From Thermus amyloliquefaciens (GTDB taxonomy: Bacteria > Deinococcota > Deinococci > Deinococcales > Thermaceae), in contig NZ_JQMV01000003.1 of NCBI RefSeq assembly GCF_000744885.1, positions 1,364,001 to 1,428,000 of the forward strand: a stretch of DNA of 64,000 nucleotides. The letters run 5' to 3'. The translations under genes and the position numbers were made by a program. Positions within the stretch are counted from its first letter, which is position 1. Every line of letters starts with the position of its first letter. The notes below the pieces were generated by a model. The model was not told the origin of the DNA. It did not search any database and was given only the letters and a program-made list of their open reading frames with translations. Of this stretch, positions 45,658-46,059 are shown piece after piece.

Positions 45658-46059
45658 GTGGAAACGGTGCCGGGCGGGCGCTGGGTGGCGGAAATCTACG
45701 GTTGCGATCTGGATGTCCTGGAAAACCCCAAGATGGTGGAGGCCGCCCTCCTGGATGCGGTGATGCGCCTGGGGGCGCCTCGAGGCTCGGCCCAGTCGGT
45801 GGTGTACAAGTTCCACCCCCAAGGGCTTTCCGCCGCGGTGGTGAGCCCGGTGGCCGCGGTGATGATCCACACCTGGCCCGAGGATAACGCCTCCGCCACC
45901 TTGGACCTCTACTTCTACCGGGATGGGGTGAACCCGGAGGAGGTCTTGAAGGGGCTTTCCCGGGCCTTTGGGGCCAAGGAGGAGTCCGCCTTCCGCTATT
46001 GGCGGGGTGGGGAACACGCCATCCGGCGCCGGGCCTTCGGCGGCCAGCAAGGAGGATAG
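45658..46059 (+). CDS. SpeD-like protein lacking the pyruvoyl serine
   Basis: 133 aa from GTG. The fold and length are those of bacterial S-adenosylmethionine decarboxylase: [16 protein letters not shown], the IHTWPE segment (H71) and [16 protein letters not shown]. Known enzymes cleave themselves at Glu-Ser in SESH to make the pyruvoyl cofactor; here the aligned residues are V65-A66-A67. The catalytic cysteine of FTCG is replaced by Tyr87. It therefore should neither self-process nor decarboxylate. Position next to speE suggests a regulatory partner of a true SpeD encoded elsewhere, or a changed function. Confidence 0.85.

Follow-up and report, generated by a model that had tools for sequence, protein, structure and literature searches.

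In bacteria, SpeD is a half-sandwich with its active site between two subunits (PMC1282579), and prokaryotic SpeD carries the union of two residue sets, the sandwich being built from two identical chains (PMC1282579; PMC5201418). In the eukaryotic AdoMet decarboxylase (AdoMetDC) these sets are divided between two halves of one protein; the N-terminal half holds the Ser that becomes the pyruvoyl group, the Cys that acts in protonation and a Glu in contact with the base, and strand 12 of the C-terminal half holds the His needed for processing and the Glu that binds the ribose (PMC1282579; PMC5201418). The trypanosome prozyme, found in trypanosomatids only, has both halves of an AdoMetDC and serves as an allosteric activator that lifts the autoinhibition of its paralogue (PMC5201418). 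In Victivallis vadensis, a class-1b fusion of SpeD1 with a degraded SpeD2 restores spermidine in an E. coli ΔspeD strain and is cut into two chains (PMC10407285). Dead AdoMetDC paralogues have been described before in trypanosomes, as has a bacterial fusion of SpeD with a degraded SpeD in Victivallis (PMC10407285); our literature search found no report of a bacterial prozyme, a SpeD heteromer, an unfused bacterial dead SpeD subunit or the family-wide conservation of such a subunit.

The window, by which we mean the whole 64,000-nucleotide stretch of Thermus amyloliquefaciens DNA analysed here, contains at 45658..46059 on the forward strand a short-form, speD1-type SpeD gene whose product is catalytically dead as judged from its translation and its alignment to Thermotoga maritima SpeD. 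Translation from the GTG at 45658 gives 133 residues, which align to the T. maritima protein (1tlu) with E = 5e-13. In this alignment the substitutions E62V, S63A, H64A and C83Y (T. maritima numbering, used below unless stated) place Val65-Ala66-Ala67 of the protein’s own numbering where the self-cleavage Glu-Ser-His should be and Tyr87 in the position of the catalytic Cys, and F49, S55, H68, W70 and E72 are retained as Phe52, Ser58, His71, Trp73 and Glu75; the sequence-only reading had numbered and assigned Val65, Ala66, Ala67, His71 and Tyr87 in exactly this way. The degenerate processing site and the retained His71 that follows it lie within codons 63-72 (45844..45873, forward strand). With 81 bits against PF02675 (cut-off 25), the protein belongs by homology to the class-1b SpeD fold, and the two residues that mark the class-1b enzyme are both gone from it, the self-cleavage S63 that yields the pyruvoyl group being Ala and the catalytic Cys83 being absent. 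Against TIGR03330, the NCBIfam SpeD equivalog, it scores 58.7 bits, below the cut-off of 75.65 that the intact SpeD of the same genome passes with 80.7 bits.

Upstream of the dead speD are an in-frame GTG at 45640 and a TATTAT -10-like box at 45644-45649 (together 45640..45657, forward strand), and a TGTGCTAtnAT-N7-GTG pattern is conserved here across Thermaceae; this consensus supports the GTG at 45658 as a putative leaderless start. Downstream, the gene directly precedes speE, as had been noted: the ATG of this aminopropyltransferase gene (46062..47006, forward strand) stands 2 nt past the stop codon of the dead speD, and its AGGAGG falls within the 3' end of the dead speD gene. In the same window, ftsK is divided, within the proline-rich linker (44110-44200), into two frames that overlap; close Thermus relatives have two extra bases in the C-rich stretch, which points to a 2-base deletion here that is either real or an assembly error.

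A second, intact speD, for which the sequence-only reading had suggested a search, is present at G000:C3:1490515, ~80 kb from the dead copy, and encodes a long-form SpeD of 144 residues with intact AESH and FSC motifs (AESH...DIFSC). Exactly two PF02675 proteins, one dead and one intact, were found in 47 of the 50 Thermaceae genomes; one further genome, 65% complete, has the dead copy alone, and the remaining two (G006 and G020) have neither SpeD and no speE. The dead-copy substitutions are fixed in all 33 aligned Thermaceae genomes, so that the proposed check of Ala66 and Tyr87 across Thermus finds both conserved (in one Meiothermus the Cys is replaced by Phe). The dead SpeD stands beside speE throughout Thermaceae, and likewise in seven genomes from two other families of Deinococcota (L081, L082, L085, L090-L093). 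On this distribution the dead SpeD appears to be ancient and strictly conserved in Thermus and its relatives. Genomes that we call Oceanithermus-type, a label inferred from their position within the phylum, encode an E. coli-type class-1a SpeD instead (TIGR03331, E = 1e-59, under the model cut-off; L086, L087, L115, L089), and no dead copy was found in them; one of these genomes (G062) additionally retains a degenerate relative of the long form in which both Ser and Cys are missing. In the Trueperaceae-like family f5, genomes without speE encode single divergent long-form SpeD-like proteins (L097-L120), most of them without Cys83 and many without Ser63, which apparently serve outside polyamine synthesis.

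Across 39 canonical short SpeDs, S63, H64, H68, T69, W70, P71, E72, D79, F81, C83 and R112 are invariant. The Deinococcota dead copies are changed at E62, S63, H64, F81, T82 and C83 in 28 of 28 cases, with Ala or Gly at position 63 in every one and Tyr (27 copies) or Phe (one copy) at position 83, and the same 28 all keep F49, P51, G53, S55, H68, T69, W70, P71, E72, D79 and R112. In the long forms, E62, S63 and H64 are invariant and C83 is nearly so (66/67), whereas E72 is kept in only 38/67; the equivalent of F49 is ambiguous in these proteins owing to an insertion. The Lys72 found in the active SpeD of Thermus was considered as an argument for complementary decay and dropped as not diagnostic, because E72 is relaxed also in long forms of some genomes from which one copy was recovered. 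Purifying selection on the dead copy is the same as on the active copy: median dN/dS within Thermus is 0.10 (dead copy) and 0.11 (active copy), and the corresponding values within Meiothermus-type genomes, in which dS approaches saturation, are 0.044 and 0.054.

When the residues kept and lost in the dead SpeD are read against the published assignment of the eukaryotic halves, the lost ones are the set of the N-terminal half and the kept ones that of the C-terminal half. H68 and E72, which correspond to the His of processing and the Glu of ribose binding, are both kept in 28/28 dead copies, and S55 and F49 are residues that we take to belong to the second half as well (human S229 and F223).

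Some long-form partners have lost residues that their dead partners keep. In G053, a single Deinococcota metagenome-assembled genome (97% complete), the long form (L083) reads AESHISIQTFPK, with Gln at H68 (H68Q being one base change) and Lys at E72; its dead partner (L082) keeps H68 and E72, and the searches of this genome gave no third SpeD in either class (1b or 1a). In the Desulfofervidaceae genomes G112 and G115, the long form reads FGFVMIAESHIS(V/I)STNIT and has lost S55, H68 (as H68S), W70 and E72, and the short partner has all four of these residues and Ser in place of C83. Reciprocal loss within one genome was observed in Desulfofervidaceae (L167 and L168 with L161 and L159). Judged by sequence, both proteins in each of G053, G112 and G115 fall short of a full active site, a pattern that is difficult to explain by anything other than a shared one.

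Dead copies also recur in Dehalococcoidia, where five of them (L160, L214, L216, L219, L220) carry S63A, E62G and C83H/Y. In 5/5 cases the dead short SpeD stands directly before speE and an intact long form is encoded elsewhere in the genome, and the residue set that would act in trans is retained in all five. In a tree built without the trait columns, which had few columns for many rows and is unsure in its deeper branching, short and long forms separate (SH-aLRT 99), and the Deinococcota and the Dehalococcoidia dead copies form two separate clades (SH-aLRT 99 each); from their placement, the Dehalococcoidia dead lineage appears to be independent of the Deinococcota one. The contig scan for dead copies used narrow peptide patterns and may miss those of other phyla. 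Among 49 genomes with one recovered copy, none showed loss of S63 or C83. Coexistence with an intact copy is explained by the need for some active copy alone; retention of the trans-acting set is the more specific evidence.

Genetic work bears on the same pair in T. thermophilus, in which SpeE is TTC0472, SpeD1 is TTC0473 and SpeD2 is TTC1093 (PMC4021367); by gene order, SpeD1 would be the dead copy. A speD1 deletion strain is reported to have no long or branched polyamines and not to grow above 75 °C unless polyamines are added (PMC6418473). The dead protein is genetically required if this deletion is non-polar on speE, and the phenotype could also reflect polarity on speE.

We propose that the product of the gene at 45658..46059 is probably the non-catalytic half of a class-1b AdoMet decarboxylase that is a heteromer with a hybrid active site. 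The long-form SpeD would supply the Ser that becomes the pyruvoyl cofactor, together with the adjacent Glu and the catalytic Cys, and the dead SpeD would pack face to face against it and provide in trans His71 for processing, Glu75 for ribose binding, Phe52 for stacking, and Ser58. The pair would complete a single composite site and leave the mirror-image one empty, an arrangement known from the eukaryotic enzyme with its two fused halves, and activity would be lost without the dead subunit. We favor this arrangement because residue loss and retention are selective in the 28 dead copies, because partners have lost complementary residues in three genomes, and because dead copies recur in two clades together with an intact long form. 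It is likewise favored because the long forms hold E62, S63 and H64 invariant and are lax at E72, because both SpeDs and speE are absent together from two Thermaceae genomes, because the Oceanithermus-type genomes with a class-1a SpeD have no dead copy, because dead and active copies have similar dN/dS, and because the T. thermophilus speD1 deletion strain is reportedly without long or branched polyamines. However, most Thermaceae long forms keep H68, with Thr at position 55, and might process themselves as homodimers.

Such a self-sufficient homodimer is the starting point of an alternative that we consider unlikely, namely that the intact SpeD is complete and the dead SpeD boosts its activity by binding elsewhere, as an allosteric activator like the prozyme. 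The dead paralogue always co-occurs with an intact partner, and there are precedents in the prozyme, within the AdoMetDC family (PMC5201418), and in deoxyhypusine synthase (PMC3663545); however, an allosteric activator gives no reason why H68, W70, E72, S55 and F49 should be kept without exception and only pyruvoyl-site residues lost, and it leaves the loss of H68 in some partners unexplained. The sequence-only reading had offered a prozyme as the idea for this gene, and what stands of it is a dead paralogue with a co-occurring intact SpeD; the trypanosome analogy is only partly apt, the prozyme there being a two-half protein that acts allosterically. A prozyme of the trypanosome type, a fused two-half paralogue whose partner has an N-terminal autoinhibitory switch, was rejected as a description of this pair, both Thermus proteins being single half-sandwiches of 133-144 aa. 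Adjacency to speE, which had been taken as a pointer to a regulator, does not serve as one, since canonical active short SpeDs precede speE too. A neofunctionalised ornithine/arginine decarboxylase, which needs S63, H68 and C83 (PMC10407285), was also rejected given the loss of S63 and C83.

Structure prediction raised a further alternative. AlphaFold2 models, made of the monomers only, have a pLDDT of 88.6 for the dead and 86.7 for the active protein. Superposition of the dead model gives Z 16.8 over 113 residues with T. maritima SpeD 1tlu and Z 12.0 (rmsd 2.3-2.5 Å) with residues 169-330 of human AdoMetDC, and of the two human halves the C-terminal one is the better fit for the active model too (Z about 10), so that assigning each subunit to a human half by superposition was rejected; as predicted, the models confirm the fold and do not tell the subunit roles apart. 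Each model is similar as well to the N-terminal domain of human spermine synthase (3c6k), and we therefore considered that the dead SpeD binds the adjacent aminopropyltransferase as that AdoMetDC-fold domain does. The gene order matches the domain order of human spermine synthase and the dead model fits the domain with Z 9.9, yet the active copy fits it equally (Z 10.1), the position before speE is shared with canonical active SpeDs, and the T. thermophilus aminopropyltransferase is functional when expressed alone in E. coli (PMC11107197); a fusion of the spermine-synthase type is absent here, the dead speD being a separate gene with its stop 2 nt before speE, so that the likeness is one of fold only. 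We judge a SpeE partner to be improbable. Slightly less probable still is a sensor of AdoMet or dcAdoMet, or a dispensable negative regulator that competes with homodimerisation of the active SpeD: the retained ribose-binding Glu and stacking residues make ligand binding conceivable, but an invariant H68 would have no purpose in a sensor, and a negative regulator would not be needed for polyamines, yet deletion of speD1 reportedly abolishes the long and branched ones. That the gene is a relic, a pseudogene or a sequencing error, as loss of catalytic residues could suggest, is scarcely credible; identical substitutions recur in 33 Thermaceae genomes and seven genomes from two other Deinococcota families, all frames are open and dN/dS is 0.10, which disposes of the sequencing error that the sequence-only reading had named as a possible refutation.

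Returning to the heteromer with a hybrid active site, we lean, by a little over an even chance, to a broader form of it, in which Deinococcota would possess an obligate two-gene AdoMetDC whose one hybrid site came about through complementary degeneration of SpeD paralogues, as an unfused extant counterpart of a step towards the eukaryotic AdoMetDC, and in which this would have arisen at least two more times (in Dehalococcoidia and Desulfofervidaceae). If true, this would give the reason why T. thermophilus depends on a SpeD-like protein incapable of catalysis alone, and it would offer a natural test of the passage from a homodimeric pyruvoyl enzyme to an obligate heteromer, the step proposed to precede the duplication and fusion that led to eukaryotic AdoMetDC. 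The AdoMet decarboxylase label that a Thermus genome-scale model places on both genes would then mislead, one protein being inactive by itself and the other perhaps nearly so.

Set beside the described systems, the Thermus dead copy shares with canonical class-1b SpeD (T. maritima 1tlu; TIGR03330) its fold, length, order before speE and F49, S55, H68, W70 and E72, and differs from it in lacking S63, E62, H64 and C83 and in falling under the TIGR03330 cut-off. With the trypanosome prozyme it has in common a dead paralogue thought to be required by the active partner; however, that prozyme is a full two-half protein that acts allosterically, and the Thermus protein is a single half-sandwich (PMC5201418). 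Trypanosomatid deoxyhypusine synthase likewise makes a functional enzyme from an impaired and an inactive subunit, in a family whose active sites lie at subunit interfaces (PMC3663545), although enzyme and fold are unrelated to SpeD. The Victivallis fusion also pairs a bacterial SpeD with a degenerate SpeD domain that lacks at least two active-site residues (PMC10407285); there, the two form a single fused chain with the degenerate domain C-terminal, whereas the Deinococcota pair is unfused, ancient and family-wide, and its dead copy lies with speE. In the eukaryotic class-2 AdoMetDC, one half has the pyruvoyl Ser, the Cys and the Glu, and the other has lost self-processing and contributes the His and the ribose-binding Glu to the enzyme's only active site (PMC1282579), which is the division of residues that the Thermus pair would share; in Thermus, however, the halves are separate genes ~80 kb apart, of bacterial class 1b, with neither the fusion nor the dimerisation extension of the eukaryotic enzyme.
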